DNA of 64,000 nt, taken from Bugulina stolonifera (lineage: Eukaryota > Bryozoa > Gymnolaemata > Cheilostomatida > Bugulidae). The stretch lies in contig OW285187.1 of the NCBI GenBank assembly GCA_935421135.1, forward strand, positions 31,250,818 to 31,314,817. The letters run 5' to 3'. Positions 31,242-62,348 of the stretch are shown piece by piece; position 1 is the first letter of the stretch; each line of letters opens with the position of its first letter. Made by a program: the position numbers and the translations under genes. The notes beneath the pieces are model-generated. The model was not told the DNA's origin. It made no database searches and saw only the letters and a list, made by a program, of their open reading frames with translations.

Positions 31242-34200
31242 TCAGCGTAGAACCCACCATAACAGAAAGACTACACACGCTGAAATAACTCCACCAAGAA
31301 TTAAAGAGTCTCTCTTTTTCCTAATATTAACTCTGGACATGAGATTGTTGATAATGGGAAATCGATCTAAGCATCAGAGTTAAGGAATTGTCTTCTATCT
31401 AGAGTCATGACAATGTAGTCCAAGTGTGACAAAATATTCTTTCCCTCGAAAACTGCTAAAATAACTTGGCATATCAATGGCATACCCATAGTGGAGGTTC
31501 TCATACAGCAAAGGCCAAAGGTTGAGGGCCGAAATGGTTATTGCCATCAGCTCAGTTACAAAGTTCCCCCACCCCACCTTATTATAAGCCAACACTACAC
31601 TAAATGTAAAAGGATACTAGACATCTCCTGCATTTTCTTAGATATCTGTGTGAATGTGTTCCTCTGGGAGTGAAGATTTTCTTTAGTGCTCATGGCAATA
31701 CTGTAACATATGAATAGTGTTTGATAACTACACTATCTACTACTATCTACTACTAATACTCAGTACTACACTATCTACTACTATCTACTACCATAATACT
31801 AGTACTACACTATCTACTACTATACTAGTACTATATCATCTACTACTAATACTAGTACTACACTATCTAATACTAACTACACTATCTACTACTATAATAC
31901 TAGTACTATACTATCTACCACTATACTAGTACTATACCACCTACTATTAATACTAGTACTCCACTATCTAATACTAACTATACTATCTACTACTATACTA
32001 GTACTATACTATCTACTACTATACTAGTACTATACCACTTACTACTAATACTAGTACTCCACTATCTAATACTATACTAGTACTATGCTATTGTACCTAA
32101 AATGAGCCAATTTGATGCCATAATATAAAGTGACCCTCCACAGCTGACAACAACTCACAGGAATAAAATGCTAAACTTAATTTTAGAACCACATTGGCAT
32201 AAATATAATATACCAAAGTTGTCCTCTCTTTGCTGTCAAATTTTGCTAAGACTAAAGGCTAGCTGGACCAATCTACACCTACATACATTGTACATGTAGG
32301 TATTATCCTGGGTGCAGAGGTACAGCACAATACAGACATATAAATCCACTAGCACACACAGACATAGACATATTAAATGCATAAGTACAGCACACATAAA
32401 CATATAAATTCCTTAGCATACACAGACAGGCATATAAATGCAGTAGCACACACTACAGCACAAACATACATGTAACTATAGTTAGTACACAAGTCATGTA
32501 ATACATGTATATACAAACACATGAAGAGATATATAGAGAAAAGTACCTGATTTGCTCATCTATTAATCTTTCAGAGCTAAAACACAAAAATTTCACATTA
32601 TACGTAAATATATATGTTGCAGTAAAACCTTTTTGCAACGTGGAAAGATAAAAAAATGAAACCAATGTAACTGTCATCAAATACCCAACAGGCTAGGCTA
32701 AGGAACATGAAATTCAGTTTAGTGGTGCTATAGAATCATCTGAACACGAAGAAATGGAATATAAAACAAATGAACCATAAGATTTTATATTCCTATACAT
32801 GTACATGTATTTAATTTACAACAGTATGTGCTAGTAGTGAGAAGTCATTCCTATATTTGAATGTGTGGTTATATAAGTGAATAGAATGATGATATGAACA
32901 GACTTACTTCCTGAGGTGCTCATTCTCTTTAAGATATAAGTCGGATTTTCTGTTCCCTCTGTAACCACTAAATTCATGATAAAATTTAGGAATCTGATAT
33001 AGAACAACATTGATCACTGATAATTTCAACAAAACTGTAGAGATATTACAAAGTAACTACATGAACATAGCCATAGGCACAAATAGTATATCACATGACT
33101 CATGCATAACCCTCAATTCTCTAACTACATATAGACATCATAATTATGTCACTATGCCTTGTAGCTTGGAAAGTGTGAATGCAATGTACACACAGGGACT
33201 ACAGTCTGAACCCAATGAAATCAACTATAACAACTCGACCAATGAGCATACAGTATACTCTACAGTCACACTATCTGATTGGTTACTCACTCCATATCTC
33301 GTCTTACACCTCCCATCAAGTCTTCTCTCTGTCTGTACTGTTGAATGTTAGACTTTGTTTTGCGGAACTCGTTGCTATAGTCTTGCAGTATTTCTCTGTG
33401 TCTCTGCATTGTGTGTAGGAGAGCAGCACTGCCTGAATTCATGCCTACAATTGTACATTTCATACATGTACATGTATATACACGCTGAGTACATGTATTA
33501 TACACATTGAGTATATGTATATACACACTGAGTATATGTATATACACATTGAGTACATGTATATACACATTGAGTACATGTATATACACATTGAGTATAT
33601 GTATATACACATTGAGTACATGTATATACACATTGAGTACATGTATATACACACTGAGTATATGTATATACACATTGAGTACACGTATATACACATTGAG
33701 TACATGTATATACACACTGAGTACATGTATATACGCGCTGAGTACATGTATATACGCGCTGAGTACATGTATATACACACTGAGTATATGTATATACACA
33801 TTGAGTACATGTATATACACATTGAGTACATGTATATACACATTGAGTACATGTATATACACATTGAGTACATGTATATACACACTGAGTACATGTATAT
33901 ACACACTGAGTACATGTATATACGCGCTGAGTACATGTATATACGCGCTGAGTACATGTATATACACACTGAGTATATGTATATACACATTGAGTATATG
34001 TATATGCCCATCACGGTACATGCATATTATACACAAGAGACAGATCCATGACATTAGCACCATACTTTTATGCGATTCTAGTAATGTTTCATAAAATGAA
34101 TAATATAATATATGATGGGATTACTCTCGCTTCACAGAAACAACTACCGCAGGTAAAGTATATACTGTACACTGTATGCTACCGCAGGTAAAGTAATATA

Positions 34201-37667: not shown

Positions 37668-40600
37668 CTATCTTGGCACACACGTAAACTTCTCTACTGT
37701 TTTTGTGCAATTATCACACCTAACTTCACAACACCAATGAAATCGGCAGTTACAAGTTGAGTTTTCAGTTACTAACATCCGCTTAACTTTCAGCCCACAT
37801 GATTTACAAAGTCTGTTGCATGATTTTCTTTCCCAGCGATTTACGGAATTCCTCATTGAAGGTCGAGAACAAGCTCTTCCTACTGAACCCGTTGTACCAT
37901 AGTCGCTGTTAGCCGTACAAAAGTTTGGTGATGGTTCTAAATATACTAAATCCTGTTTTGATATCTTTAGGATGTCTCTTTCGTCTCTTCGCTGGGCACT
38001 GTTGCCTTTACGCAGCTGTCCATTTTGTGCATCAACCATGACAGCTCTAAAGTATTTCCGTTTAAGGAAATCACCAACTTTTCTGAAATCAGGCAGCTCC
38101 TTCCAGCACGTTCGAACACTGCAGCTACCCGAAACCCCATGACACTTGCATGTTAGTTTCAAAGTTCTCCAGACAGCCTGGAATTTTCCAATAGAATCAT
38201 TATCTACATGTAGCAAGGAATAGTGAATATAACATTCAACATAAGACAATCTATTGAACAGGAAACTTCTGTTCAACAAAAATAGACAACTCCAACATTA
38301 GAACCGATGAATTATAATTGCTCAAACCAGAGTGGACCTATCTAACCGGTCAGAACTATTATAAACTGAAATCCTATAGAATAGCCCAAGATTTCAGTTT
38401 TATGACACAATTAAATAAGACCAATTTAAAACTTTTAATTGTTGTTCTGTTTTAGACATGAATTCTGCATTAGATTAGAGTGTATGACTACCATATTGTC
38501 ACAGCAGCCTAGGACTAAGCTATGTATCTTTGTGAAGCTCTACAAGAGCTGAAAGCTCAAAGTTTCTAATTTACATAAATTCCCTAACAGATAGATTTAC
38601 CTGATTGCATCTAATTATAACTTGTTAACACCATAATATATACACATACATGTAAAACACACTATAGATTTCTCTGGTATGCACCATTAAAAACACATTT
38701 TCAAAATATATTTCATGGAGACTACACCATTTTTTATAATTTACATATTAATCTAATTTTTCAACATCATTGTGGTGAGAATTTTTCACAGCATATAATT
38801 TTGTATCAATCATGTTGTACATTTTGAAAATATTCCAAACAAATTTATTTGCAAGATAACATACAGTGTAGCTGTCAGCAACGCAGACTCAACTATAATA
38901 ATTTATTATAATACATCAGAGCATTAACATATCATTGCGAAACAAAGCCGAGGTATAATTTATAGGCAGAGTACAAGTGCATGTACTTTATAATTCACAA
39001 ACAGCTCTGACTTCTAAGACTAAATTGTAGGTTATTCTAATTCGGTGTGTTTGATGATTTCATCAATAATTTGATGTTTAAGTAAGATACTAATAATTAA
39101 AAGGCATGATGCTGGTAATATTATTATATGTTACTACACTGCACAATAAACAAAGTTGTATATGATATAAAAGACAAGACAACTTATGCCAGAGATGTCA
39201 TGTTACATTATAAAGGTAATGATCATATTAGAAACATCAACTAGATAGTATGTAGTAGATAAATGTGAAGGGAACAGCCTACCTTTCTGCCAACCTCGTT
39301 ATTGTGAAGATTCACTATTGCTCTCTCATCTACACCAGTTTCTAGATTGTCTATATATTCTTTAGCTGCCCTTTCACCAAATGCAACATTGTCACTGCAG
39401 TCCCCCCAACTCCAATCCTTGTCACCTAAAAATAATTGAACACTTACAAACTCACTCCAAAGTAATTTACTACGTAATGTATGGAATAGGTGTATTGTGG
39501 ATATAGTTCTAAAATATCATTACTTGGAAATTCGTATCATATTGACACTCCTTCTGGAGTATGAAATAAATTCTCAAGGGGTTGTTGACACATCGATGAC
39601 ATTACAATATAAAGTATAACATAATTATACTGAAAGGAGTTATTCCGCCCACATTTTATGTAGAAGCACCAATGTAAATAAAATATATTATTTATGCTTA
39701 GGAATATTTACAACAGTCACAAGTTACTCTGAGCCATGGTTAATATGTGTATCTCCTTTCTACACATGATAAAACAGCTTGGAACAGTTGCTATCGTTGT
39801 GAGACTAACAAAGACAGTCAGCTGCTGTTGGTAGGACATAGGACTAAAATATAATGTGATACAAAACTGTCATCTGGTTTTGAAGTCTTTAAAGTTGCTA
39901 TTTTTTACAATTCCAAAGTTGTATTTCATGTCTGCTTTTCTGTGTTGTGAACAGAATTGGACCAGTTGACCATTGTTGGCTGTCGACTTTGGACAACTTC
40001 AATAAGCTATAGGCAGTCATATTGGCAAGCTCAAAAAGTTAGGAACCCAGGCCAGTTCTGTGGGTCACTGCCATTGGTAATTTGTGTAAGTGCCTCTTTC
40101 AGTAGCAGTGAGAACTTGTCTGAAATGCCTTTCAGATGTCAAAGTATTCTTATCATAACACTGTATTACTGTACTACTGTATTACTGTATTACCGGATTA
40201 CTGCATTGTTACCGATGAGATTCTTACCTTTAGAACCAGATTTGCTCTTGTCACAGCTGCAGGTTTTAAAGTGTCCCATACTGCAGTTCAAGGTGAGGGT
40301 GTACATAACTCCAGCAGAGATTATCGAGTTTAAGAAGGCCACTTCCCTAATAGCTAAACAATAAACAAACAATAATCATAAATATAGGCCCCCATGGAAT
40401 GTGCCAAATTGAGGTGGTTATCATAGGGCAGGTAATTCGGCTGTTCTACACAAATAAAGACTGCAGCACATTTAGATCAGTGAGAAATCCTATAGGATTT
40501 GCATAACTCCACTGGAAATTCTTTAGAACCAATATGCTCAGGAATTTGGCTACAGTTGGTTATAGCATTAAACTCACATAACATTCTTGGGTGTGAATAT

Positions 40601-42758
40601 AAGTACCAAATAATACATCCCAATAATTATCAGGGTTATTGTAACAAAACTACAGTAAATACTGTGTTGTTTCGAAATTTAATTGCTGTTAATTGAAGAC
40701 CCACAGTGTAGGTATGTACATGTACATACATGTACAAGAAGAAACTGTTTTATTAACCTGGATTATGAATTCCACTAAATATTACATACACTGTAATGTA
40801 GCTGGTAGTTAATTGTAGAAGACTTATTTGGACCATAAATTCTCACAACAGTCATTATACCAACAGTAGATCAACCCACCCAGGCGTTTGTCTAGAACGA
40901 AGATTATGCCAACATAATTATATTTGCATGGTCTACAATACTACATGTTGCAATGAAAGACAAAAAATGAGTCTAAATCTAATAAGATTGAAACAAGATT
41001 TGCAATTGCTGCCTACCAGTAGGTAAATCGTTCTCATTAAACAAAGAGACTGAAGTTTTGGGACAATTCCATCTATCCCACTTGAATTGATGCCGGCATT
41101 CCTCCATGGCCAGCATACCGCCAGCAGCTGCACTTTCTGAGAACATTGCTGATGCCTAAAATATAATCTGAAGATATCAATGAAAAGTTAAAGCTGAAAA
41201 CAAATATTATTACAAATATGTCATAGTAACTTCTAGACTGTTTTCACAGTTTTGTTAGCAGTGGCAGCCAGTGCCACTAATAATATTGATAGTTAGATGA
41301 AAATAGTTGGCTATGAGAGCAACTCAATAATTTATTATTATTAGATATAAGCTTCACTTTGAGTGAAACTCATTTGAACTTTATAAATAACCTGCCACTT
41401 GACTGTGATTATTAATTCATGATTGTTTAATCTTTTAAGTGATGATTACAGAAGAAATTTTAATCCAATTTTAGACTTTCTCTCAATAAATACATAGGCT
41501 ATAGGCATACATGAATACTATTGACAAAAAATGCTGTTGTTTGCTGAGAAATCATCGTTACAATAGGATAGCTTGACATGATATGACAAAATTAATAATT
41601 CAAACATTCCGTCAAAACATAAGCATAAGCATAGGAGAGTGGAACTTTGGCTAGTCAAGTGGTAATCAGCAGAAATTGACTATACTTAAGTGTTACCTGC
41701 AGGCAGGTCCTGCTTGAGTAATAATTTGTATGCTGCCATTAGAAAATCAACAATTCAATAGACTAGACTAGTCTTTAGCCTAGCTGTTAATTTTAAGAAA
41801 TACATATGAGTAGTATAGTCAGTGCAGATCTACACAGACACCCGGCCCTTTCCGCGTCGTATTAGCCCTAGATCCAAAAACTCCCCGGGCGGACGACCAC
41901 CCCACCCGTCCTCTCGCCCCTCCTCTCCCCTAAACCTCACTCTATGTGCAAAGCCCTAGAACCTACTCCCCCCCATCGCGGGTGGGGTTTCAAAAACCTC
42001 ATCGGCTGTTCCGCGGAACCCAGTCTAAAGAGCAAACCCCTCGCCCCGTCCCACGGCTCGGGCGAGGGGGCGCGCGCGTACGCGCGCGCCCCCCCGCCCC
42101 GCGAACCCCACCCGTCCTCCCTCCACCCGTCCCCGCCCCTCCCCACCCCTCCCCACCCCAAACCCCTCCGCCTCGCCCTCCGCCTCGCGGCGGTTCTCGT
42201 TCGCGAGTCCAGCCGTGGCCCCACGCCGCCCTCCCCCCGCCCATCCCCCGCCCCTCCCCCGCCCTCCCGCCCCAACGACCCGTCGCGACCCTCGCGGGCG
42301 GACCGTCGGCTGGAGTAGGGTGAAGCGAAGGAAAATACGGGTTAGAGTAATGATAGGCTACACCCGTGCGGAGTGCCCGTGCAGAGTTTACGACGCTGAC
42401 TATACTACTATAAAAAACTTACCGAGTGGTGGTGGTGGTGTTTCCGGATGATTTCTTCGCCGGGGACTGTTGAGACTGAACTGGTCGGGGTGACACCGCA
42501 CTCGCGCGCTCCTCCGTTCGAGCGCCCCCGGACCTTCGATGAAAGACTCGCGTCTTAACCCTCATTTTCCCCGGACCCTCCCCTAGGGAAATCGCCCGTC
42601 CCCGTGACGAGCGGCGAGAGAAAGTGAAGGCGGTGGCTCTTCCGCGCTTCAAACCGTAGACTTCGCGAGGAGGTTAGCCGACGACATCATCGCTCGGAGG
42701 GGTAGAAATAGAAATAGATAAACGGGATAGATGGACGCTTGTCTTCTCATCGCCATCG

Positions 42759-42808
<50 letters not shown>

Positions 42809-45800
42809 CAAATAGACCCGCCTCTACGATGATGTCGTTGACTCGCCACCAATTTCTTTGACCACCGCGTCCACTTTCCCCCGGGTAGCAAACTCCGATA
42901 GGGAGAGAGCGCATCGTGCGCGTGCGATGTCACCCCCCACCTACGAATGAAGACAATAGAAGAAATGTGAACTGATAAGGGGTGAGTATGAGCGGAAGCT
43001 GCGCTAGTATCGTCTACCCCTTTGGTTTGGAGAGGTAAATGGTTTTTAATGTATTAGCTAGTGTTTTATTGCTCGGTTTTAAGGCTACAACCGGTAAACC
43101 CTCCGTTTTGAGGACGGAGACCCCTTACAATAGAGAGTGAATGTGAAAAAAATTATACGGGTATATGTACAAGGGTTATGATGCACTGTTCGTTTACTCT
43201 CCAATTTATCGAATGAAGTAGTCTCATCTCCGAGAAATCAGTACTAGCATTCTATAGGACTCGTACTCACCCCGTCTTCTGCAACCTTCCGCTTACCATA
43301 GAAGTAGGTGAGTCCGGTCTTTAGCTGGGTGTAGCTATACGTTTGGTTTCCTCTTCTGATAAAACCCCGATTGTCCCCTCTCACCGACTCCCCTGTCCTG
43401 AGCACGGAGAGGAACTTCTCTTTGGTTAGGGCGTTTCCTCTTTTGTTTAGTCCTTTGCTGCTATACTTGCTATCACCATCAGCGGACCAGCAAAAGTATG
43501 TTTTTGAGTTGAGCGCGATGACCCCCTCCCCCCGAAACTCCTCCTTAAACAGGCCGGGGGTTCGTGTTTCGTATCGTTGCACCTTCTCACAACATTCCCT
43601 CATCTCCCACTCTTGGCCAAGCACCTTGGTCGTGATAAAGTCTTCCTTGTGCCTATCGCAGAAGGGTCTGGGAAACCATCTACCATATTCTCTGTAGAAC
43701 TCTTCTTTTTTATCTTTTCGGATGACCTCATCTATACTACGAGCACTCAGAGCCATGTAAGCGCTATCCGTGTCCATTTCTACGTACTCAAAGTCCTCTC
43801 TGCTGACGAATCTGTGAAAATAAAACGGACGGGTTGTAGGGGGGGGTTGGGGTTGACACCAAAGAATAAATAGAGAAGGATTTGATAAAATCTTTGTATA
43901 GTCTAGTGCTACTTACCTATCCATAAAGTCGTAGTAGAATTCTAGCATTCTCAACTTGGCTCTCTGGAGGATAACGAATCCTACGACAGATGGAACATCC
44001 ATTCGAATCTAAAAGAAAGAAAGAGAGAGAGAGAGTTTACCCTACCACTCAGAAAAAGTTTCGTCAAATCAAGAATCAAAATAAAAAAAAAAGATTGTCA
44101 ACACTTGCCTTTTTCTTGTGAAGCTCTATCTCAAAGTAGTTTTCATCAACTTCGTTTAGACTAGAAAAGTGCCTACTCCTCACTTTGACAGCCGCCTCCT
44201 CTACTGTCTCCACATACTTGACAGTCTTATGTTTCTCTTTATTTGTTATGGTCTTTCCGTAGGCTGAATTCCCAACGAGCTTGCTGGTGCTGGCCAAGAG
44301 GGCCAGGTCGGGGTTCACATCCCCACCTCTTCTTGCGTCTGAGACCGAAGAACCAAAGTCTTTGTAGATGGCTCGTGGGATAAAGTGAACAAACTGATAG
44401 ATCCTGGTAATTATCAAACCTTGATCTAGATACCATCTAGCCAGATCGGAGAGTAGTGTGATTCGCTCGCCAAAAAGACTCCCCACGAGCATTCGCTGAG
44501 GTCTCTTCAAGAATCCGTTCTGTTCGGCAAAAGCGCGCATGTGTTCGCTAAGGTGTTCTCTTCCCACGTTTATATTCTTGAAAATAGGTGCCATCTCAGA
44601 GAACTTCGCTTTTAGCTCTTCGGGTACGGAAATGTCACACTCCACTAAACCATAGTACTCTCCACTACGAATGTTATTGATTATCTTATCGAGGTTGACG
44701 TAACCCCTCTCCGGATAGAGAGAAGAAAAGAAGATGGCGAGAAATGTCCTAACTTCTACATCCGAACGAACTCGCGCTTCCCACTCACACTGCCGAGTGG
44801 TGATGAGCTTATAGCCTAGAGCCTTGATGTAATCTTCTTTCCTTGCAGTGTCCACCCGGAGCTCTTCATTCGTCATGTTTCTGACACCTTTTCCGTTCCC
44901 TCCTAGCTCGCACTCGTGCCCATGCCAGTAGCAACCGTGGAATTGGTACACCGTCCGACTCTGTTCGCTATAACCATCCACTGGTAGGTTGTGACAGCCT
45001 ATCCTCATTTCTCCTCCATTCTGTTGGTGAAGGATGACCTCTCCTCTCTTCCACGATTGGAACTCTAACCAACCATGCGCCACTTTGCTGAACTTTTTAA
45101 TAGGTTCTAGAGCAAAGCCTCGGCTCTCTAGCCTCCGCCTGGGATAACCCGTAGGCATATTCCCCATCATACAGTATAGGTAGAGGGCGTTGGCATCAAC
45201 TCCCAGAATGGACCTACAGGGTTTTGCGGATGTGCCATACATCTTCTCTCGAATAGAGGTCACTCCAACTTCATGATGTCTGTGAAAGATAATGCTTGGC
45301 CCTCCCACGAGGTTATCGCGAAGAGTATGGTACAGACTTTTGCTCTCCTCATCGAACAGACATATGGGTTGCGAGTTGCAAAGTTCGTCTCGGAGAGACA
45401 TTAACCTATGCAGCGGAAGAGCGGCTTGTGGAGGAGAGTAGCCATAAGGTCGGGCCTCCACCTCCATAAACAACCATCTGATAGCCAAGCCTGGAAGCGA
45501 GATTGCGGATTTCAACATGTCAATACCCTTTTGTCGATAGATAGAGCTCTGACGTGCAATGGCCTCGATGAATGGGGCCACATCGAGGTTGTTGTACCAG
45601 ATGAGAAAATCCCTGAACGTTTCCATGTTCTCTCTTTCCCACACGACCTGACAGTGGTGATAATCTTGCTCGCTCAATTCTTGCTGAGTCAGCGAGTTGA
45701 AAAAACTCTCTCGGGGAGGGAGTCCATAATAATCCAACCTTCTCAGGGAATCTACCCAGTCGTAAGGAAAGAATCCCTTACTCTCTGACACGCCAAATGC

Positions 45801-48800
45801 CTTCAAGTATTTGGAGTAGTTGAAGCCCGGTGCGATAAAGTTGCATATGTCAAGGAACCTAAAACGTCTACTCTCCACGCAGGACATACTGTTAACACGC
45901 TTAACGATGAAGACAAAATCTTCTCCCTCCTCCTCTTGTAGAGAGCGAAGCAAAGGTCCCTTTAGTATATTTAGGTCATACTTTTGTGAGTTGAAACCAA
46001 CCACCGGAACGCTGGAGATGTGTTGTTCTAACTCTCTTTCTAATCCGGAGAGACCGGACTTCACCCTGTAAGTCGAGACGTTAGAGAACTTTTCGTCAGC
46101 AAAGGCTTCTTCTCTATCCGCCCGATCCGCAAGGAAAGTAGAGAGTCGCTTGCGTACATCCCGGAATCTTTCTCCGAACAAATCTCCTGCCACGTCAGCA
46201 ATCTTTGCTATGTAGTGGACGAATTGACGAATGCACTTCGTTCCATCCTTGCTGTCGACACTCCTCACAAAGCACTTGGCCTGCTCAAACCCCGGGACGT
46301 TAGAACATACAGATATGCTCAGTAACTCGTGTCTTGCACTAAAAGTCATTGTGGAGGTGTTAGTTTGTAGGTTGTCTTTTGGCATGAAGCATTCAATATC
46401 ATAGGTGATATAGTAGGGGTAGTATAAGAGGTCGGGGTTCACCACCTCTATTCCCGCCACTCGCTTGAGTTTTGTGAATATGGTTGGCGGGGGTCCAAAC
46501 GTTCCACCAGGGAAAACAAACACCGATGCTTCCTCTGGCGAGCACTTATGTCGCCGTAGGCTGGACAAACGTGTGAAAGCGCCATCGCACAACTTGCAGG
46601 TGAAACATCTGGCAAACGAATCAACATTCTTTATCCAGCTGAAGTGTTTTTCGTACATGTTGACAAAGAGTTTACGGGCTTTGTTTCGTGCCCCAGATGA
46701 CCAAACTATCGGAGCTACCCCCTCATCAGTTAGGCAGAAGACTATTATAGATATGTCAAAATGATCTTCCAAGGCCAGCAGATCACTCGCGCCCACCCCG
46801 GGAAAGTCTGACAAAGTTGATGAGGGTGGGGAAGAAGATCTAGATTGTCTCATGTATTGTTTAAACAAGCGATGTGTTGTGGTCTGAGAGGGGCGATGAC
46901 AGCAACATCCCTTCTTTGGGTCGCAGTTACAGTCATACATCATGGCCAAACATCTAAAGAAACACAATTTGTCTGGGTAGGGACGGGCACCTCCTCTGGC
47001 CCAAAAGTCTACATCTAGTGCTATCACATGTCGGTTGTTAAGTATGTAGTCTGGGAGTTTGCTCACTACACCGCCCACCTTGCCAATCTCTAGGAGTTTA
47101 TAGATGTAGAATGTCAGATTCGCAATGTGACGTAAAGCCCAAGCGGTATTCGGTCTCCTTTGTGCTGACCTCTCTCTCAAGTCGAGCTCCTGCACAGATT
47201 CGCAAAACTCTCTCATCTCATTCTCTGCTCTGATCAGTCTTGGCTTGGGGAAGAACGCGGCATTGTTGCTTGATGAGTGAAAGTAGCGCAACTCTCCACT
47301 GGTCTTATGCTCGAGGATGACTCCAGCGCTACAGTTAATCTTCACAGTACAAGGTACTCTCTTCCACATCGCTCTCAATTTAGTCCACACCTCTTCATCT
47401 CCTTCATCTTCACATTCCCCTCTCCACACTCGAACGTTGAGAATGTCTTCTACAGGACGAGAGTGTATTGTGGACCTGATCGAGCTCCAATAGCGGGCTA
47501 GTAGCACCCCCATCTCATCCCCCTCTTCAGCTGTTGGAGGTTTGGACCAGAAAACATCATCAAACTTCTCTGCATCCCCCTCATCTTTTTCCGCCTTGGC
47601 CTCGCTATGAAATCGTCTCATGTGATGACCTAGCTTTCTCCTCCCATCAAAACATCCACCACAAACCGGGCACTTGTGTGGGTGAGCCTGTGCATGCATT
47701 CTCTTCGTGTGCCTGTCTAGAGAAAACGCTGTTTTGAGAACCAGACCGCATAGTTGACAAGTGTGCTCGGCCTGACGAGAGCTCTCCCCCCCTATAAAAA
47801 TACAAAATAGTAGGGTGTAAGTTATTCTTTTACCTCATACTACTATTAGCAATCCACAATTGTTACCAACTACCTCATTTAGCACTAACCTTTTTTACTT
47901 GTTGACATCTCTGATCAGGTGCTGACTAGTAGGTAGGTGTCTCTGTTTAGTCTCCCTATAAAAAATATATAGTAGTAGGGTGTAAGTTAATTTTTTTTGT
48001 TTTTGGCTCAATAGCGTTATATACAATAGACACTTCACAATTGCTGCCGATTACCCTATTTAGCACTAACCTTATGTTGTACTTGTTGACATCTCTGATC
48101 AGGTGCTGACTAGTAGGTAGCTGTCTCTGTTTACTCTCACTCTGTTGACCAGAGGCTGATTGTTCATACTGCTAGAGTGAGAAACTCATACCTTAAATAG
48201 TAGTATTCAGTGGGCGGAGTCTAACCATTTCCCCACCCTTGGCAATACCACCCCGATGTGAATCCGATGCATCCCGATGTGAATCCGAAGCTTCCCGATG
48301 CATCCCGATGTGATTCCGAAGCTTCCCGATGCATCCCGATGTGAATCCGAAGCTTCCCGATGCATCCCGATGTGAATCCGAAGCTTCCCGATGCATCCCG
48401 ATGTGATTCCGAAGCTTCCCGATGCATCCCGATGTGAATCCGAAGCTTCCCGATGCATCCCGATGTGATTCCGAAGCTTCCCGATGCATCCCGATGTGAA
48501 TCCGAAGCTTCCCGATGCATCCCGATGTGATTCCGAAGCTTCCCGATGCATCCCGATGCATCCCGATGCACCCCGATGTGAATTGACACATCGGGACACA
48601 TCGGGATGCATCGGGAAGCTTCGGAATCACATCGGGATGCATCGGGAAGCTTCGGAATCACATCGGGATGCATCGGGAAGCTTCGGATTCACATCGGGAT
48701 GCATCGGGAAGCTTCGGAATCACATCGGGATGCATCGGGATGCATCGGGAAGCTTCGGAATCACATCGGGATGCATCGGGAAGCTTCGGAATCACATCGG

Positions 48801-51800
48801 GATGCATCGGGAAGCTTCGGATTCACATCGGGATGCATCGGGAAGCTTCGGAATCACATCGGGATGCATCGGGATGCATCGGGAAGCTTCGGAATCACAT
48901 CGGGATGCATCGGGAAGCTTCGGATTCACATCGGGATGCATCGGGAAGCTTCGGAATCACATCGGGATGCATCGGGAAGCTTCGGATTCACATCGGGATG
49001 CATCGGGACACATTGGGATTGGATAATAAAAAGGGAGGAGTCAAGAAATGAGCAGATGTATAAAGGGAGAGTGGGATCACAGTCTCAGCATTCAAAGTTC
49101 AGCACATCACTACTGTACAGGAACACTACTACAATAGTACATTATCAATGGATACTGACAACATAGTCCAGAACCAAGAAGAGTTATTTGCGGGCTTAAC
49201 GGACTCACAAATGGATGGAATTATTGAAGAAGAAGAGTGCAGTCAGAAGAGGAAAGAAGAGGTGGATGCGTTAAAAGAGGCACGGAAGAAGGGGAAAATA
49301 ATAGGAGTGGGGAGTCTTGCCCGAAAGGATCTTTCTAACATGGCGGACTCTCCGTCCTCCCCGGAGCGGGCCTCGGATAGGGGCGAGACCACAACAACCA
49401 AGAAGAGGAAGAACCCAAAAGGAGATGAAATCTGTGCTAAGAAAAAAAAGAAACCCCAGGTGATTGTAATATCAGATGATGATGATGATGGCCACGGAGC
49501 CGATACGGCTACGGAAGAAATGGATGGTGGTGAGACGACGAAGGGAAAAAAAGCTACCAAGTCCCCTTGCAAGGGGAAGAAAAAGAGCGGGGGACTAAGC
49601 CTGGAGAAAGCTCGTGCAGTGGCGGCAACCCTAATGTAAGTAGCCCTATTCGTATATCTATAAATTACCGTACTATCTTTCTCCCGTTTAACCACTTTGT
49701 CGGATCTATATACACCACTTTCATTATTGTAGGAGCATGGGACCGGAGAAGAGGAGCTCTCTGCAGACAACGGTGAAGCTGTCGGAGCTAGAGCCAGGAA
49801 CTGTGCTAGAAGTGAGTGGAGGTTCGGTGGTTGAAACGGCATTCGGAAAAGCATTCTTAGCCAGGGCAAGCTATGTGGATGACAAGGGGATGAGACATTG
49901 CATCAGCTTTCACACCAACATTCGTCACGCCATGCCCAAGCTAGCGGATGTCAAAGAAGAGGAGCTAAAGGACCTTACCCTTCCACCTAGGATCATGGTG
50001 TACTTGGGACAGCAGGAGACCGCTAAAGGACAAAACACATTCAACCGTATCGAGAGCGTGTGCTCCCTGCCAGGAGCAGCCATGAAAAAGCTGGCCGGTG
50101 ACTTGAGAAAGAAGACCTTGGCCCAGTTGGAAGAATTTTTTCGAGTGCAAACGCTATCTTCCTTCCCCGTTGGTTCTGTGCTGGTGGTGACCGCGCTCCG
50201 ACCCACATACATCCCAAGATGCGGTGATGGTGATAATGCGAGCAACTCCATTGCCACCTACGAGTGCCGGATTGGAAACGAAGAAAAAAAGGGAGAAGTC
50301 TTCCTTCCGGGACGTCTGGCAGTTTCGATGAAAGAGCTCCTCCCCTCCGTGATGGTGTACAAGGGACAGAAGACTTCCAAGAGCGGGAGAACATTCTACG
50401 ATTGTGCCATTCTAGACTCCATCCTCGGCGAGCGTCTCCTCCCCGCCACTGCACAGTTTTGAGGCAAAAACTTTTGTCATTCACACTCATTCGTGTCTAC
50501 TTATCAATTGATTTTATATTATTACTCTCAAACTCGTGTATCGTTAGCCTTACTCATATTTTTCATAGTCGTATATCGGTTTTTATCGATTGATTTTATA
50601 TTATTACTCTCAAACGTATTGAAAATTAAAACAAACTCGTGTATCATTACCCTTACTCATATTTTTCATAGTCGTATATCAAGTTTTTTATCGCTTGATT
50701 TTATATTATTACTCTCAAACGTATTGAAAATTAAAACAAACTCGCGTATCATTACCCTTACTCATATTTTTCGTAGTCACATATCAAGTTTTTTATCGAT
50801 TGATTTTATATTATTACTCTCAAACGCATTGAAAATTAAAACAAACTCGTGTATCATTACCCTGACTCATATTTTCATAGTCGTATATCATCTATTCTAG
50901 AATACATCACACACCATTACTCTAACCCGTATTTTCCTTCGCTTCACCCTACTCCAGCCGACGGTCCGCCCGCGAGGGTCGCGACGGGTCGTTGGGGCGG
51001 GAGGGCGGGGGAGGGGCGGGGGATGGGCGGGGGGAGGGCGGCGTGGGGCCACGGCTGGACTCGCGAACGAGAACCGCCGCGAGGCGGAGGGCGAGGCGGA
51101 GGGGTTTGGGGTGGGGAGGGGTGGGGAGGGGCGGGGACGGGTGGAGGGAGGACGGGTGGGGTTCGCGGGGCGGGGGGGCGCGCGCGTACGCGCGCGCCCC
51201 CTCGCCCGAGCCGTGGGACGGGGCGAGGGGTTTGCTCTTTAGACTGGGTTCCGCGGAACAGCCGATGAGGTTTTTGAAACCCCACCCGCGATGGGGGGGA
51301 GTAGGTTCTAGGGCTTTGCACATAGAGTGAGGTTTAGGGGAGAGGAGGGGCGAGAGGACGGGTGGGGTGGTCGTCCGCCCGGGGAGTTTTTGGATCTAGG
51401 GCTAATACGACGCGGAAAGGGCCGGGTGTCTGTGTAGATCTGCACTGACTATACTACTCATATGCATTAAAACAATACTATTTGACAAATCAATGTGTGC
51501 TATATGATCTTATAATTACTAGTCAACAATTAATACAAGTAAAAGAAGAAAAAGTAAAGTGAATTACATGTATGACAATCTTGATACTTCCAGTATAATA
51601 TGCCACAGGCCTCTAAACTTCCTTTCAATTGAATGCTAATTGAATTCCTATTCCCAAACCACATATTACAAAGCATAAATAGATAGACTATGATGTCTAG
51701 AGATAAAAGCAGTCTCCAAGTTACTCATACATTCATGTAAATGTAATTGAGTCGCCTCCTGTGTTTTTATTTAACATTTCTAGAGGGCGTTTGAGGAAAA

Positions 51801-52888
51801 TATTCTTTATTAGATTTCACATTATTCATAGCCCACACCTATGTGTGGGGCCTGAGTGTGTGGCATGTGTATGTGTGAGGCCTAATAGTGAGCGTGTGTA
51901 TGTGTGTGCAGAACAATAAAGAAGAAGACAGACAAACGAAACCTTACCTTTTGTCCAGCCATCATGAAACTGTTGAGTGACCTAAAGGAGATCAAAAGAT
52001 AATTTACACAAAAACAACACACACACATGCATGTACATATACATATACATATACATATACATGTACATGTACATGTACATGTACATGTACATGTACATGT
52101 ACATGTACATGTACAAGTACATGTACATGTACATGTACATGTACATATACATATACATATACATAATTATACATATACATGTACATATACATGTACATAT
52201 ACATGTACATATACATGTACATATACATGTACATATACATGTACATATACATGTACATATACATGTACATATACATGTACATATACATGTACATATACAT
52301 GTACATATACATGTACATATACATGTGCATATACATGTGCATATACATGTATATGTACATGTATATGTACATATACATGTACATATATATGTACATATAC
52401 ATGTATATATACATATATTATGTACATGTACAAGCATATGTACATGTATATGTACATGTATATATACATGTACATGTACATATACATGTACATATACATG
52501 TACATATACATGTGCATATACATGTGCATATACATGTATATGTACATGTATATGTACATATACATGTATATATACATGTACATATACATGTTTAAAAGTA
52601 TTGTTGACTTTAACTATAATTTAAAAGGATTTCATATTTTTATGTACATAAATGAGTGGCAACCATAATAAAGTAAGTCCACAGTCTATCTCACAATCAT
52701 GCGGGTAAAAGAGTCATTTTGAGGTGGGAAGCAGAATTACCAATTTGACAACGAAACAGTTATTTACACAACGAATTTAAAGAAAGTTTACAAGTGTTTA
52801 CATGCAACACAACTTACCAAGTGCTGTAGGTATGAGCAAATTGAGCAAAAATAGCTGTAATAAGTATACTTGAGATCGTCCTCCACAT
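37668..52888 (-). CDS. Wnt family secreted signalling ligand
   Basis: A secreted lipid-modified ligand of Frizzled receptors. Six in-phase exons are 52818-52888, 51948-51981, 41017-41155, 40228-40353, 39283-39425 and 37668-38177. They give 340 residues, a normal Wnt length. The start is a signal peptide ([20 protein letters not shown]). Then come [56 protein letters not shown] and [16 protein letters not shown], the last holding the Ser that is palmitoleoylated in the family. The end is cysteine-rich ([19 protein letters not shown]). The 34 bp second exon was found by phase and splice sites and is the least certain join. The subfamily is unclear. Intron 2 is 10.8 kb because it holds the 9.65 kb mobile element. 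Confidence 0.9.
41803..41808. repeat. Target site duplication CATATG, left
   Basis: CATATG directly precedes the first base of the left terminal repeat and is repeated at 51459-51464 after the right one. It is itself palindromic, so in principle it could be counted as part of the inverted repeat. Confidence 0.8.
41809..42352 (+). repeat. Left 544 bp terminal inverted repeat
   Basis: It mirrors 50915-51458. The stretches I compared, and all translated frames, are identical in the two copies. It is GC-rich with long C runs on the plus strand, so G runs on the other strand may form quadruplexes. A perfect 28 bp palindrome of alternating CG around a central TA lies at 42066-42093. Its inner end, AAAATACGGGTTAGAGTAATG, borders the internal region. 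The 80-125 codon frames on both strands are low-complexity by-products of base composition. Confidence 0.95.
42396..42409 (-). repeat. Internal inverted copy of the element terminus
   Basis: CTGACTATACTACT is the exact inverse of the first 14 bases of the element (41809-41822), in the same orientation as the right end. It lies 44 bp inside the left terminal repeat, so 41809-42409 is itself bracketed by 14 bp inverted ends. Confidence 0.85.
42758..42806. repeat. (CAT)n microsatellite
   Basis: About 15 CAT/ATC triplets in the left subterminal part of the element. They translate to poly-Met, poly-His or poly-Ile and are not coding. Confidence 0.9.
43244..47908 (-). CDS. Family B DNA polymerase (viral/organellar type) of the element
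   Basis: Predicted replicative polymerase, probably protein-primed as in Polintons. Exons 47890-47908, 44109-47791, 43917-44008 and 43244-43811 join in phase to 1453 residues. Order: two C2H2 fingers (C18/C21/H34/H39 and C47/C50/H63/H68); a region at about 280-395 with LCFFRCL and MYEKHFSWI, reminiscent of an OTU-like Cys/His fold (inference); a third finger near 403; exonuclease motifs YDIECF (about 472), [10 protein letters not shown] (about 608) and YNNLDV (about 740); motif [11 protein letters not shown] (about 872); an insert with FHGCYWHG and [15 protein letters not shown] resembling a Vsr/PD-(D/E)XK nuclease; motif [11 protein letters not shown] (about 1180); motif C MDTDSAY (about 1277). 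All catalytic motifs look intact. The 44009-44108 intron uses a GC donor. The start is the ATG of a duplicated short exon. Confidence 0.92.
47791..48160 (-). repeat. Duplicated 5' exon and leader of the polymerase gene
   Basis: Two copies of a roughly 160 bp block lie upstream of the main polymerase exon. Each holds an acceptor-like TTTTTATAG or leader, GATCAGAGATGTCAACAAGT and a GTTAGTG donor. The inner copy gives the start codon (47906-47908), with six codons before the donor. The outer copy (ATG at 48074-48076) meets TAA just before its donor, so it can only be untranslated leader or a tiny upstream frame. Confidence 0.75.
48193..48203 (-). promoter_or_regulatory. Possible TATA-like box of the polymerase gene
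   Basis: On the minus strand TACTATTTAAGG lies about 120 bp upstream of the outer leader ATG, between the 31 bp array and the duplicated exon. It is a plausible core promoter for leftward transcription, but a second TATA-like stretch (CTATATATTTTTT, near 47965) also exists. Confidence 0.35.
48251..49020. repeat. Inverted array of 31 bp repeats, possible origin/promoter
   Basis: The left arm (48251-48583) repeats a 31 bp unit, CCCGATGCATCCCGATGTGA plus ATCCGAAGCTT, with A/T alternation at one base. The right arm (48586-49020) carries the same unit inverted, about 13 times. The axis is near 48584. Each unit holds the palindromes GATGCATC and GAAGCTTC. The array separates the two divergent genes. 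Frames stay open on both strands but are artefacts. It resembles iteron-type origins or binding arrays; function is inference. Confidence 0.93.
49059..49065 (+). promoter_or_regulatory. TATA box of the rightward element gene
   Basis: TATAAAG sits about 30 bp before an initiator-like TCAGCATT and 83 bp before the ATG at 49148. It lies just outside the right arm of the 31 bp array. Confidence 0.6.
49148..50462 (+). CDS. Unrecognised 405-aa element protein, possible ssDNA-binding protein
   Basis: Two exons (49148-49635 and 49733-50462) join in phase (AT|G) to 405 residues. I do not recognise the family. Residues 1-165 are charged and probably disordered: an acidic start, lysine clusters such as KKRKNP and KKKKKP that look like nuclear localisation signals, and an Asp run after VIVISDD. 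Residues about 170-400 hold two related halves. Each has a start like PGTVLEV or VGSVLVV and ends with [16 protein letters not shown] or [17 protein letters not shown], a pattern suggesting two OB-like beta barrels. With a replicative polymerase as its only partner, a single-strand DNA-binding or replication accessory role is the best guess. A terminal protein is another option. The ATG follows a good TATA box. Confidence 0.8.
50498..50898. repeat. About 106 bp tandem repeat beside the right terminal repeat
   Basis: About 3.7 copies of an AT-rich unit containing TTGATTTTATATTATTACTC and, later, TGTATCATTACCCTTACTCA. The first copy is shortened. The last degenerates into CATTACTCTAACCCGTATTT, the inner edge of the right terminal repeat, which suggests the repeat and the array share ancestry. 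It forms the 3' flank of the rightward gene. There is no equivalent array on the left. Confidence 0.88.
50915..51458 (-). repeat. Right 544 bp terminal inverted repeat
   Basis: Inverse of 41809-42352, with the 28 bp CG palindrome at 51174-51201. It ends in CTGACTATACTACT, followed at once by the CATATG duplication. The 112-residue frame at 50992-51330 is the exact counterpart of 41937-42275 and is not a gene. Confidence 0.95.
51459..51464. repeat. Target site duplication CATATG, right
   Basis: Second copy of CATATG, directly after the last base of the right terminal repeat. Confidence 0.8.
52027..52591. repeat. ACATGT/ACATAT hexamer array in Wnt intron 1
   Basis: About 94 hexamers of ACATGT and ACATAT, with a 12 bp alternation over much of the length. 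It is self-complementary and alternating purine-pyrimidine in parts, so it can form cruciforms. All reading frames on both strands are open and are spurious. Confidence 0.93.
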
Positions 52889-57200: not shown

Positions 57201-60200
57201 ATTATATAATATATTATACATAACAAAGTGTGAATATTATTCTATATTCATCTTACTCATCAGTATGTGAGCCTCCCGTCTTCCATGCTAAATTGTCATA
57301 TGACTTTTTAACCAGTTTTTGAACAAACGCCTACAATTATATAACACTAATGTATATGCATGAGATAGTAACACTTCTTTTTTGTCAAGACAAAGTAGTA
57401 AGAAGAAACCATATCATTCATAGTCTTACTAGACATATTGAGTTACAGACATGATACAAGCACCCAATATATTTTCTGAGAATAGGGATTTGCTACAGTG
57501 CTACATACTCTCCATTTTGTCGCGTCAGTAAGAAGGTTACGGATCTGAAATAAATCGGAGCTGGCAGCAAGCCATGGTACATAGTGGACTTCATCTGATA
57601 GGTAGGTTAGGAAGTTGAGTGCTGTCTCATATCCCATACGGTCATAGGGAGGTAGAGTTATCGCATCATTTACCAACCCTGCTCGATCTCCAACAGGCAA
57701 GTTCTGTAACACAAAGCCATGGCAATGCAGTGAAATATATGTCCATGTGAGATTCCCTGAGCAATAACATATATATGCAAATGCATAGAAGCCATTTTGT
57801 TGTTAATAAGAAATATTTAATGAGAAATTCTGACATTTTATACAGGTATATGTTCATGGACGCTCATAAGCTATTGACAGAATTTTCTGTGAGAGGAACA
57901 GAAATTGGGAGAGGACAACTTCTAATTACGATCGATAGCTTACATGCTGCATTGTATTGTACCTGTACTTATTTAGAGCATGCTATATTACGCGGAAATG
58001 ACAGTCATATATGAAATAAAGTTAATGTCGTAGAGTACAGATATACTGCTACTTTCTCATGTGGTTATAATACCCTGTCTACACTTGCATTAATTTTGTT
58101 GTCTGCAAAAGATAAATAATTTGGAACATGTTATTTGGATACCTCGATATTCTGTTTGAGAAGATCTGTGAGTTTCTGCCACCATTCCTCTGGGTAGGTG
58201 ACTTTATAGTAGCCTGTGCTGTCCTTGTTAAACTTCAACCATTGGGTCCCGTCACTCAGATCTACTGGGCTAGGAAACGTGGCTAACAATAAGTATAGAG
58301 TAGTTCAGTATAATTACTGGTGTGAAATTCCTATTGCTATTGTAACTAATATTATTACTACAGTAAAATGTAAAACATACATGTGCATATTAAAGGATAC
58401 ACAAGGTATGGATATTAGGCTAGATATTGCAAGAAATCATATGTATTCGTAAAACCAAGGGCTGTGCTTTGTAAATGGTCCATTAATATACAACACAATA
58501 TACATGTACAATTCACATGTTGTATAACATTGATATATTATATGTACATTATACAGGCCGTGGTATGACATTGTTTCTTATGCAGGTAACTCTCACCACA
58601 CTTAGGCCTTAGTACAATCTTAGTTTATACTGCTTTATTGTATAGATAGTGCACATCTATACTGAGTATGAGCACATGTATGATGTATAGCTAAGCTGCA
58701 TAATACAACTTCTGATTTACCAGTATCTCCTGTTCTGTGAATCCATGGGAACGTTGTGTCACTACTTCCATTATTAGACACATAGTGAAGAGGCACCTCC
58801 CATAGATAGCTGCAATGATTGGAACATCATGACTTATGAAATAGCTAAGTTTATTCACCGCAATATTTGAAGATATCTGTTACACTAGTCCATCTACTGT
58901 ACACGCATATGTGTAATACACTTGTACAGATATACAATGCATGTACAAATACATGCACACATTATTTCATGTAAGCAGTACTTATGTGGGAAGATTTGCT
59001 ACACAGGTATATACATGTACATGTACAGGAACAGTAATGTATAGATACATGTACATGTACAGGAACAGTAATGTATAGATACATGTACATGTACAGGAAC
59101 AGTAATGTATAAATAGTTATATTTATCATGTAATTTCTAGTCACATTTTCGCTGCCTAAAGTAAAAGTACATTGATGAAAGTTGCATGCACTTCACCACA
59201 ATGCTTATAATTTTAAAGTTGTCCTCTCTCTGCTAGTGGACACAAGTATAGGAGAAGACAACTTCTATCAAGCATATGAAACAAGGTGACGATGCATTTG
59301 AACTACGTATATGATAATTATCATCTACTGTATTATATGAACAAACTTGAATGGTGATTTGGGCCACTCTGCTGTTTCTGCTCTGTCTTTGCACAAAGTC
59401 TGTTTGGCGGTGATCATCTTGGTATCTCTGTCATACGTAATAGTGACCAGAGGGTACCCACTCTGCTTAGTCCATGTGTCCATGATGAGCTCCACATCCC
59501 ACTCCTTAGCGTGTTGACCAATGCTTTCCCATAGCTGATATGTCTTGGCATTATCATACTGGTATCTTTTTAAATAGGCCTAAATATTTATAAAGCAATA
59601 TATAAAGTTGACTAGATAAATCTGAAAATTCTAAAATAGCTGTTTTGTTTTATCTAGAATGGAAATGGCTCAAATAAGTAATGAGAAATATTAGCACTTA
59701 GCATAACTACAGTATATTATGTTGTTACCATGGAAACACCTCAGGTATACAATCATGTAAAAATTATAAAGTTTTAATAAATTTATTCTGCTTACCGTTA
59801 GACCTTCTTCAAATACTTTTGGTCCAATAAATGCCTCCAGCATTCTGATGACTGAAGCACCCTAGAATATTGTCTTGAGTTACAATATATAGAAATAGAA
59901 CATGTAGTCTCAAAGTCACAACTTTATTATTGGCTACGCTAAACCATGACAAATACCTCCAAGTAGATTGGCTATCAGCGAGTCTATGTCTTGGTAACTC
60001 CACAAGTTATTCATTGGAAGAGGACAACTTCACATAATAGTCAGTGGCCTAGAGAGATTCATGGCCTCAACTAAACGGTTTCAAACGATTTCAAACGACT
60101 TCAAAGGACTTCAACGCCCTTTTCAAATACTAGTAGTTTACCAATTGCTTCCCAAGTCATACTCAAGTACAACCAGCTCAGCGTTAATTCCCGCAATATA

Positions 60201-62348
60201 AGATTCTATTCTCGTACCTTATTATAAGATATTGCATCAAAGACTGCAGTTATGTCCTCCGGTCTCTTCACAGGAACTATTATAGGATGTGAGCTGACTA
60301 CAGAGTCTTCTGGCATCACATTAAATGCCTCGAGAGAAGCAAATTGACTGAACTAAAACAAGGGGAGGCGTATACACATGCATGTATAATTGTTGTAACA
60401 AAGATAGCAGCAACTGATTAGATTTACATAAGACGAAACATGGACCATACCATGTACATTCCTTGATGGATGATAATCTCATTCATAAAGTGCTTCTGTG
60501 ATTATTAGTAATGCATATATTTCAGCATTGCAGTACCTGTTAACTAAACTTCGCCCTGTTTTATAAGCATGTTGAAGGTACATGCATAGGCGTTACCATG
60601 CTTTTGTAGCATAAATGTATTTAGTTTCTACCTACCACTTGCATATCCGGTTCAAACTCCTCGGTTCCAATGTATGACATAAATGTAGCAAATCCTTCAT
60701 TCAGCCACAGGTCATCCCACCAGTCCATTGTTACAATGTTACCAAACCACTGTCAATAATTGTAAATCATGTATAACATTGTTCTACTTATATGATATCT
60801 TATGGCGGCATATTAAAGCTTGAAATATATGTCCACATGTCCCATAATATCCTCAGTTGCTATTACTGTAGATAGAACTAGACAGGTGCCCTGCAGGTAG
60901 TCAAAATAAGTGTACAGTTCTTTGTTGACAGGTGCAGCAATGTTAGAATTGAACCATTTGAGGTAGGCACAATCCCAACTGCTGGATTTAGGGAGTATTG
61001 AGACTCAGGAAATGCCTGTTTGAGCATTACTTAGAGCAAAAAAATGTGCATTTCTGGAATAACACAATCCTAGCCAGCCAATAGCCTATGTATTGAAGTC
61101 TTGAGGCCTGTTAACTTTATTGCTAGTGAAACTAGCAATAAAGTGAGGGTGCATGCTTGCTGATCATGTGCTCTCACTTCTAACACTGAGGTGTAGTGTT
61201 GCATTACCTGGTGAGCAAGCTCATGGGCGACAACTTCAGCTATTCTCTGTTTATTAGATGGTGATGACACGCCCTTTTTATACAGCAGGTTGGTTTCTCT
61301 GTATGTGATCAATCCCCAGTGCTCCATTGCTCCAGACACAAAGTCAGGTATAGCTATCATATCTACAGTCAGAAGATGTCATGCCTTTGTGAGGTTTCAA
61401 TAAACGAGTATATGTGTGTCCTCGAGACCTTTAGGATCCACATACATTTGACCTAAGCGATAATAAACACTAACCTGCATTTTGTATGGCTGAAGTAAAA
61501 CATCTCCAGCTCATTAGCAGAGACAAGTATCTTACAAAAAGGAGTTGCTTTAGGTTTGACTTGATCTAATACATTCACGGTATTTGCACCTGGAGTGGGC
61601 CAAACTGTGACTGAAACTTGGGTGACGCATTGAAAGTAGTAACACCTATAGTCTAATAGATGTCTAAAGTGTTTGTCTTACCCATTTTTGGTAACGGATA
61701 CTCTAGTCCAAAGTATGTTTCAAAGTAATCTGTGACGTTAGCTCCAAACTCCAGTGCGTAATCGATTTGATCTTCACTGCCTTCCACAGCATAAACTCTA
61801 AACTACACATGCAATATAAATACAATGTTGAATATAAAATTAATAATGGACTAACTCAACAATTTAATTCCAGCAAAATAGAGCCTACTATTTTCAAGAT
61901 GAGGTCATGGAAATAAATGTACGCATGTACCTTCTTGTTTGACTTGAGTATCTTTTCCTTATAGTTGCACTTGCAGACAATGAAGCATGCTAGGTAAGTA
62001 CTCATTGGCACCGACTTTTCAAACCTTGTTTGTTTCAGACCATCTGTTCGCATAAATTCCTCCTAAAAATATGAGATAATACAAAGAATAGAGTTTCCAT
62101 AAAACAATGTAATACTGGATAAAACTGAAAAATCACACCATGCAGGTCCAGTTATTTATGATAGTGCTTATAGCACGATTTGCACTGGTAGATGTATAAT
62201 TGTTACCTCCACTGGCATGTTAGACAGAGCTACAAAGTCCGGTTTATGAATCAGTGTCGTAGTGAAAGTTGCTTTCAGGTTTGGTTCATCGAAACATGGA
62301 AATGCTTTACGTGCATCCACGGGTTCAAATTTAGACGTGGCCATTGCT
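54221..62348 (-). CDS. M1 family zinc aminopeptidase (N-terminus missing)
   Basis: Removes N-terminal amino acids from peptides. Seventeen in-phase exons: 62207-62348, 61931-62062, 61682-61802, 61208-61362, 60636-60749, 60218-60352, 59796-59861, 59347-59579, 58721-58809, 58143-58282, 57509-57703, 57257-57330, 56475-56585, 55843-56010, 54911-55051, 54539-54620 and 54221-54364 (about 747 residues). Seen are [20 protein letters not shown], the zinc site HELAHQ-WFGN with NEGFA 18 residues on (HExxH-x18-E), [12 protein letters not shown] and an ERAP1-like helical C-terminal domain ending NGWLKNNN. The exopeptidase motif, usually GAMEN, reads GAMEH here. It resembles the aminopeptidase N/ERAP/LNPEP branch. 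About 150-250 N-terminal residues, including any membrane anchor, were not found before 64000. One intron holds a SINE. Confidence 0.92.
55108..55347 (+). mobile_element. tRNA-derived SINE with 11 bp target duplication
   Basis: The 240 bp insert is flanked by exact ATACTTTTGGA copies (55097-55107 and 55348-55358). Its 5' part is tRNA-like, with an A box TGGCCTAGTGG (55115-55125) and a B box GGTTCAATTCC (55158-55168). The middle part (GTGTTAGGAAGAGCATCCAG) and an A-rich 3' end complete the structure. Presumably moved by LINE machinery in trans. It lies in an aminopeptidase intron, antisense to the gene. Confidence 0.9.
59010..59113. repeat. 34 bp tandem repeat, three copies
   Basis: Three copies of a unit starting ATACATGTACATGTACAGGA lie in an aminopeptidase intron. 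Confidence 0.9.
59216..59264. repeat. Hairpin of the AAGTTGTCCTCTC family
   Basis: AAGTTGTCCTCTC on the left pairs with GAGAAGACAACTT on the right, with one mismatch. It is 49 bp in total and lies in an aminopeptidase intron. Confidence 0.6.

Follow-up and report, generated by a model that had tools for sequence, protein, structure and literature searches.

How does an element go on inserting itself into a genome when it carries a DNA polymerase gene and no integrase gene is found in it? The question is raised by a stretch of 64,000 nucleotides from the bryozoan Bugulina stolonifera (assembly GCA_935421135.1, contig OW285187.1, positions 31,250,818 to 31,314,817; hereafter the window), in which positions 41809-51458 form an element of 9650 bp bounded by terminal inverted repeats. 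A first-pass annotation, made from the letters alone, had described 544-bp inverted repeats, AG ends, a 6-bp duplication and a family B polymerase gene with one other gene, without integrase, protease, ATPase or capsid; repeats, ends and duplication were all re-read in the sequence, and Pfam scans of the frames returned the same gene content. The two 544-bp arms are complementary at 100%, the ends read AGTAGTATAGTCAG...CTGACTATACTACT with the motif (AGT)2...(ACT)2, and the target duplication is CATATG. This duplication is itself a palindrome and lies inside the 554-bp span returned by the repeat finder (41799-42352 and 50915-51468), which is made up of the 544-bp arm, the duplication and four further bases. 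The polymerase gene is encoded on the minus strand and the second gene on the plus strand, both diverging from a central inverted array of 31-bp units, and the G+C content in 2-kb windows is 0.464-0.532 in the element compared to 0.295-0.412 in the rest of the window. We read the element, with a probability of about 70%, as a reduced derivative of a Polinton (group-I Maverick) that has kept the replication module only, copies itself and borrows an integrase in trans from the Polintons resident in the same genome.

To see how the element is represented in the host, the genome (235 Mb, 27 contigs) was searched with a 40-base end pattern allowing up to 3 mismatches, which matched 309 places in forward and 308 in reverse orientation, compared to 0 and 0 for the control; the ends thus do not match by chance. 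Pair lengths were measured on the first 100 places, situated on contigs 1-4, giving 49 pairs and two single ends out of about 308 pairs: 31 pairs span 9.3-9.9 kb, 16 span 7.2-8.4 kb, one spans 11.1 kb and one 2.7 kb. All 40 terminal repeats scored (of 677 candidates) are 100% identical over 544 bp, and the best 37 of 538 candidate exons of the family-B polymerase (PolB), distributed over eleven contigs, are all full length and free of stops. Twenty further copies were fetched from contigs 1-4 and every one of them is flanked by an exact 6-bp duplication, 19 of these being distinct, with AACATG occurring twice. Ten of the 20 are long copies (9.3-9.9 kb), which differ from the window copy by 5 to 60 substitutions, many of them within the array; the main PolB exon is a single open frame in nine of the ten (it is broken in L013), and the exons of the second gene are open in all ten, with frames of 191-192 and 256 amino acids (aa). 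The recent activity that had been suggested from the window alone is thus supported by the identical repeats, the intact polymerase exons and the very young long copies. The two unpaired ends among the first 100 places lie at C2:27651832 and C2:11683695, one of them 2.9 kb from a complete copy.

The polymerase is a group-I Maverick/Polinton family-B DNA polymerase. Our gene model comprises three exons, the first (N-terminal) exon lying outside it. The main exon carries exonuclease motifs and palm motifs A and B, as read by eye, and matches DNA_pol_B_2 (PF03175, E 2.4e-06) in Pfam, next to weaker matches to C2H2 zinc fingers. A structure model of residues 440-1252 (mean predicted local distance difference test score 84.5) has phi29 DNA polymerase as its top match in the PDB (E 1.4e-04) and the Escherichia coli Vsr endonuclease (1vsr) at rank 18 (E 0.041, probability 1.00). 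Within the Vsr-like stretch, D514 and H532 are invariant across 26 aligned rows. A VSR-like insertion of roughly 140 aa is given as a mark of group-I Mavericks in the passages of a phylogenetic study that treat it (PMC10328495, crediting Kapitonov and Jurka 2006). By family membership the enzyme is of the protein-primed type, and it presumably starts synthesis from a protein. In a set of 5.8 billion proteins, 7987 candidates were scored and at least 319 relatives passed E <= 0.001, with 120 of the matches listed; among these, the closest are unnamed proteins from public contigs, about 50% identical, and those of Branchiostoma and Patiria are 34-36% identical. A tree of 44 PolBs likewise places the window family among unnamed relatives. 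Four scans of viral contigs, with this PolB, a PolB alignment and two distant PolBs, yielded no confirmed locus, and phage records gave one weak, partial match.

The second gene encodes 405 aa in two exons delimited by eye, with two OB (oligonucleotide/oligosaccharide-binding) folds predicted in the second, and its product is a putative single-stranded DNA (ssDNA)-binding protein. A single-sequence search returned two relatives and a profile search three.

For rve integrase, protease, ATPase and capsid, the four coding stretches and three leftover frames of the element gave no Pfam match at E <= 1, frames of 60 aa or more being listed; the same scan detects rve in the full Polintons of the host. 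Nor did the Pfam scans of the element frames contain a Cas1 domain. Apart from the array and the introns, the stretches without an assigned gene measure about 0.9 kb (adjoining the left repeat), 0.4 kb (upstream of PolB) and 0.45 kb (adjoining the right repeat and occupied by tandem repeats). Because the integrase and virion genes were looked for and not found, the element is by the strict definition not a Polinton; it is a Polinton-derived replication-module element. Its size, 9650 bp in the window and 2.7-11.1 kb for the 49 measured pairs, also lies below the 15-20 kb of a Polinton/Maverick.

Full Polintons do occur in the same genome. A genome search with the Patiria PolB, in which 28 of 961 candidates were scored, sampled seven further PolB families (F1-F7), two of which, F1 (loci L034, L035 and L038) and F4 (L036 and L037), are full Polinton families with integrase genes, while F2, F3 and F7 were seen as PolB only. 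F1 is the nearest host Polinton to the window PolB by identity (43%). Its copy at C2:22639544-22654224 measures 14,681 bp, has the ends AGTAGTAATG (AGTAGT) and the duplication AGTCAC on both sides, and encodes an integrase (rve, E 7.2e-14, with a chromodomain, 3.2e-08) and an ATPase matching Adeno_IVa2 and Pox_A32 over the cut-off; its frames for the adenovirus protease and the double jelly roll match below the cut-off only. F4 possesses an integrase as well (rve, 1.4e-13, with chromodomain) and an adenovirus-type protease over the cut-off, next to a presumed ATPase with matches below the cut-off and a presumed capsid frame without a capsid match; the F4 ends examined showed no target duplication. 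Beside the F1 PolB lies an OB-like frame that aligns with the second gene of the window element at 22% over about 100 residues (E 3e-06, one-sequence search). We hold this kinship tentative because a profile comparison gave a probability of only 21.8% (E 0.001). A genome-wide Pfam search for the adenovirus-type protease found none, but its control was likewise unmatched, and the search is insensitive since the frame-by-frame scan did find matches in the full Polintons. A similar genome-wide search for rve, in which 150 of 986 candidates were scored, was set aside as a source of Polinton integrases, the four candidates fetched looking like Copia or Gypsy by eye.

The first-pass annotation had offered two options, a reduced Polinton moved by integrase supplied in trans or a distinct replicative transposon, and had proposed to look for full Polintons with matching ends. 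This match is partial: F1 and the window element are alike in the first seven bases and in the length of the duplication, and the rest of the repeat sequence differs. Given this likeness the first option is favoured, in which the integrase would come from elsewhere in the genome. Intact vertebrate Mavericks are described with (AGT)2//(ACT)2 ends and 6 bp duplications (PMC8097293). Since these ends and this duplication length are known from integrase-bearing Mavericks, the same enzyme class most likely inserts the present element, and an rve-class integrase is the most likely inserting enzyme, with the integrases of the resident Polintons as best candidates. In the mechanism that we propose, PolB would copy a free linear form of the element from its inverted repeats by strand displacement, probably with protein priming, and the OB-fold protein would coat the displaced single strands. 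The rve-chromo integrase of the resident full Polintons would then act on the (AGT)2//(ACT)2 ends and insert the copies, giving rise to the 6-bp duplications. Strand displacement in vitro is described for a Polinton-type PolB of Entamoeba (PMC3511435). The retention of PolB together with the loss of the integrase suggests that the element's own repeats are specifically required for replication and only the last bases for integration: the replicase would have to read the repeats of its own family, while an integrase needing only the generic last bases could be shared.

A truly integrase-free transposon would do without this help, the Vsr-like nuclease within PolB, or a host nuclease, making a staggered cut in the target. 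PolB and the ssDNA-binding protein would then together constitute a complete self-synthesizing, self-inserting two-gene transposon without rve integrase. The window element, in which no integrase was found, a sister copy of the same two-gene length (see below), and the Vsr-like fold with its two invariant residues all fit such an element. However, the same insert marks group-I Mavericks generally, which also carry integrase (PMC10328495), and for that reason it is no substitute for one; moreover, integrase-bearing Mavericks have just such ends and 6-bp duplications, and the genome is home to full Polintons that encode integrases. We therefore regard self-insertion as unlikely.

Could the element instead be a short-lived product of internal deletion in a full Polinton, the latter still circulating with identical ends? 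PolB, and perhaps the second gene, have Polinton counterparts, and deletion forms of this element itself occur. Against this, none of the 49 measured pairs is longer than 11.2 kb. The 11.1-kb copy, of which 4.0 kb was read, contains a duplicate of about 1.5 kb from its own gene-2 and array region and no new gene, so that the finding named beforehand as fatal to the two-gene reading, namely a larger size together with integrase and capsid genes in every other copy with these ends, did not turn up. The pairs measured are 49 of about 308, and if a full copy with identical ends exists as a rarity, it would alter the lineage claim but leave the facts on the copies read untouched. A second argument against a passive deletion product comes from a sister subfamily. 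Families F5 and F6 share 95% PolB identity with the window, compared to 32-43% for the other five families sampled. F6 was read over PolB only and one sister copy, of F5, was read whole: located at C6:2398259-2407993, it measures 9735 bp, carries both genes as well, has identical terminal bases and is flanked by the duplication TGTAGG. The ratio of nonsynonymous to synonymous divergence (dN/dS) of PolB is 0.140 between window and F5 (dS 0.148) and 0.152 between window and F6. Since F5 has the same genes and this ratio is low, the two-gene form predates the split of the subfamilies and PolB has been under purifying selection since, which is unexpected for a passive deletion product. A two-gene layout common to two subfamilies at a PolB dS of about 0.15 makes the form old and a short-lived origin by deletion quite unlikely.

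The two subfamilies did not diverge evenly along their length. For the second gene, dS between them is 0.03-0.04 (15 changes; L046 compared to window 49148-50462), far below the value for PolB, which suggests that this gene was exchanged between the subfamilies by recombination or conversion. Also the terminal repeats of L010, L018 and L027 are 96.7, 96.5 and 96.5% alike to those of L047, whereas the adjacent DNA is 90.3, 92.9 and 94.3% alike, hinting at constraint on the ends or at their exchange.

Insight into the way in which the element is copied was obtained from its rearranged derivatives, comprising nine of the 16 shorter pairs (7.2-8.4 kb), which are within the 20 copies read, plus the 2.7-kb copy L024. 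In L009 and L017 the right end is replaced by an inverted left end. Six copies (L012 and L019-L023) are large near-palindromes without a frame longer than 220 aa and form an amplified group, built of two inverted arms that derive from the ends and the central array of the element; in L012 and L022 about 1.3-1.8 kb per arm does not match the window element. L025 is rearranged with loss of the second gene, and L024 is truncated. All ten short derivatives lack an unbroken PolB exon and lack the second gene, yet each has a perfect duplication; therefore they were most likely replicated and inserted by enzymes encoded elsewhere. At the two inverted junctions examined no microhomology was apparent.

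The repeat arms lead in the same direction. We compared them in 19 elements, namely the window element and the 20 copies minus L024 and L025, whose repeats are truncated. The two arms of one element are separated by 0-5 differences, counting positions and gaps (median 1); in 18 of the 19 (all except L016) this number is below the median distance of that copy to the other copies (range 3 to 13). Eight elements of this set are palindromes or carry swapped ends and so are not independent evidence for the co-variation of arms. Stronger evidence comes from the sister-subfamily copy, in which both arms share 14 substitutions and 3 gap columns relative to the window and differ from each other in 5 columns. 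Cut-and-paste transposition would not predict such co-variation, and we infer that it would arise if a linear molecule were copied with each end serving as template for the other. Together, the palindromic and end-swapped derivatives and the co-varying arms suggest that the element replicates as a free linear molecule.

The insertions might also be integrated DNA of a free-living linear virus or plasmid, occasionally acquired from outside, rather than a resident transposon lineage. The long copies are very young, and the nearest relatives of PolB among the matches listed are unnamed and come from public contigs without known context, both of which would suit an external source. On the other hand, no capsid or other virion gene was found, one genome holds about 300 insertions along with an older subfamily, and palindromic derivatives were amplified to several copies, which leaves this explanation with little probability compared to a resident, Polinton-derived lineage. 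An assembly artefact, the other objection raised beforehand, is very unlikely to the point of being negligible, no point having been found in its favour, because each of the 20 further copies on contigs 1-4 has its own exact duplication, with 19 distinct sequences, and PolB copies are present on eleven contigs.

Bidnaviruses are ssDNA viruses with capsid genes, and no capsid gene was found in the present element. They resemble it in a protein-primed PolB of Polinton type (PMC4061559, PMC11071296). Casposons combine a PolB with inverted repeats and have no capsid; unlike our element they are described as prokaryotic, with predicted integration by Cas1 and no Polinton descent (PMC4046053). The family-B2 polymerases of Entamoeba histolytica are likewise of Polinton type, and the authors found no integrase, protease or ATPase in that genome; in contrast, excerpts of their report describe no multi-copy element with repeats and duplications (PMC3511435). 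Closest are the group-I Mavericks/Polintons, with which the element shares a protein-primed type PolB with Vsr insert, (AGT)2//(ACT)2 ends, 6-bp duplications and long terminal inverted repeats; it differs in its length (9.65 kb compared to 12.7-24.6 kb for intact vertebrate elements, PMC8097293), in having two genes and in that integrase, protease, ATPase and capsid were not found. A survey counted nine of 72 Polintons without major capsid protein, protease and ATPase (PMC4028283). These capsid-less Polintons have also lost virion genes, but loss of the integrase is not reported in the excerpts of that survey, whereas in the present element the integrase is absent as well; a phylogenetic study describes the rve integrase as universal among Mavericks (PMC10328495). 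In the open-access literature we found no report of a many-copy, integrase-less, PolB-bearing Maverick.

Non-autonomous elements usually lose their enzymes and retain their ends. The present element reverses this pattern, as its replicase is retained under selection while insertion is seemingly outsourced, and a single genome contains about 300 of its end pairs. In Polintons, integration and replication thus appear separable as modules, with the replication half able to prosper, a point relevant to views on the origin of related plasmids and viruses. Moreover, Polinton replication is narrowed here to two candidate proteins and one repeat pair, and therefore the copying mechanism is testable with purified proteins, apart from virion genes.

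Table 1. Features of the element and its target site (window coordinates).
Feature	Position	Strand	Basis and remarks
Target site duplication CATATG, left copy	41803..41808	.	Read in sequence; pairs with 51459-51464
Left terminal inverted repeat, 544 bp, starts (AGT)2	41809..42352	+	100% complementary to 50915-51458
PolB C-terminal exon, palm motif C (YMDTDSAY)	43244..43811	-	Limits by eye; may end at TAG just below 43244 or splice once more
Short PolB exon	43917..44008	-	Splice sites by eye; similar residues in alignment consensus
PolB main exon, zinc fingers	44109..47834	-	Open frame to 44079, 1252 aa; PF03175 E 2.4e-06; low limit (GC donor) by eye
Vsr-like endonuclease insert within PolB	44745..45062	-	PF03852 E 0.00019, below cut-off; 1vsr E 0.028
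Tandem 31-bp units, left arm of central inverted array	48264..48558	-	Repeat analysis
Tandem 31-bp units, right arm of central inverted array	48597..49008	+	Repeat analysis
Gene 2 exon 1, charged N-terminal part	49148..49635	+	By eye; no match in Pfam or PHROG
Gene 2 exon 2, two predicted OB folds	49733..50462	+	By eye and structure prediction
105-bp AT-rich unit, 3.5 tandem copies	50529..50890	+	Repeat analysis
Right terminal inverted repeat, 544 bp	50915..51458	-	100% complementary to left arm
Target site duplication CATATG, right copy	51459..51464	.	Read in sequence

The inverted array between the divergent genes extends over 745 bp (48264-49008) and is also present near the centre of the palindromic derivatives; it may serve as promoter, origin or fold-back site. 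Outside the element, long simple-repeat tracts at 51885-52670 and 33290-34120 are open in several frames, and no gene is inferred there. As judged by eye, the insertion is flanked by Wnt gene exons (37671-39516) and by those of an M1 aminopeptidase (57446-61378), both on the minus strand, and the element is positioned upstream of the Wnt exons.

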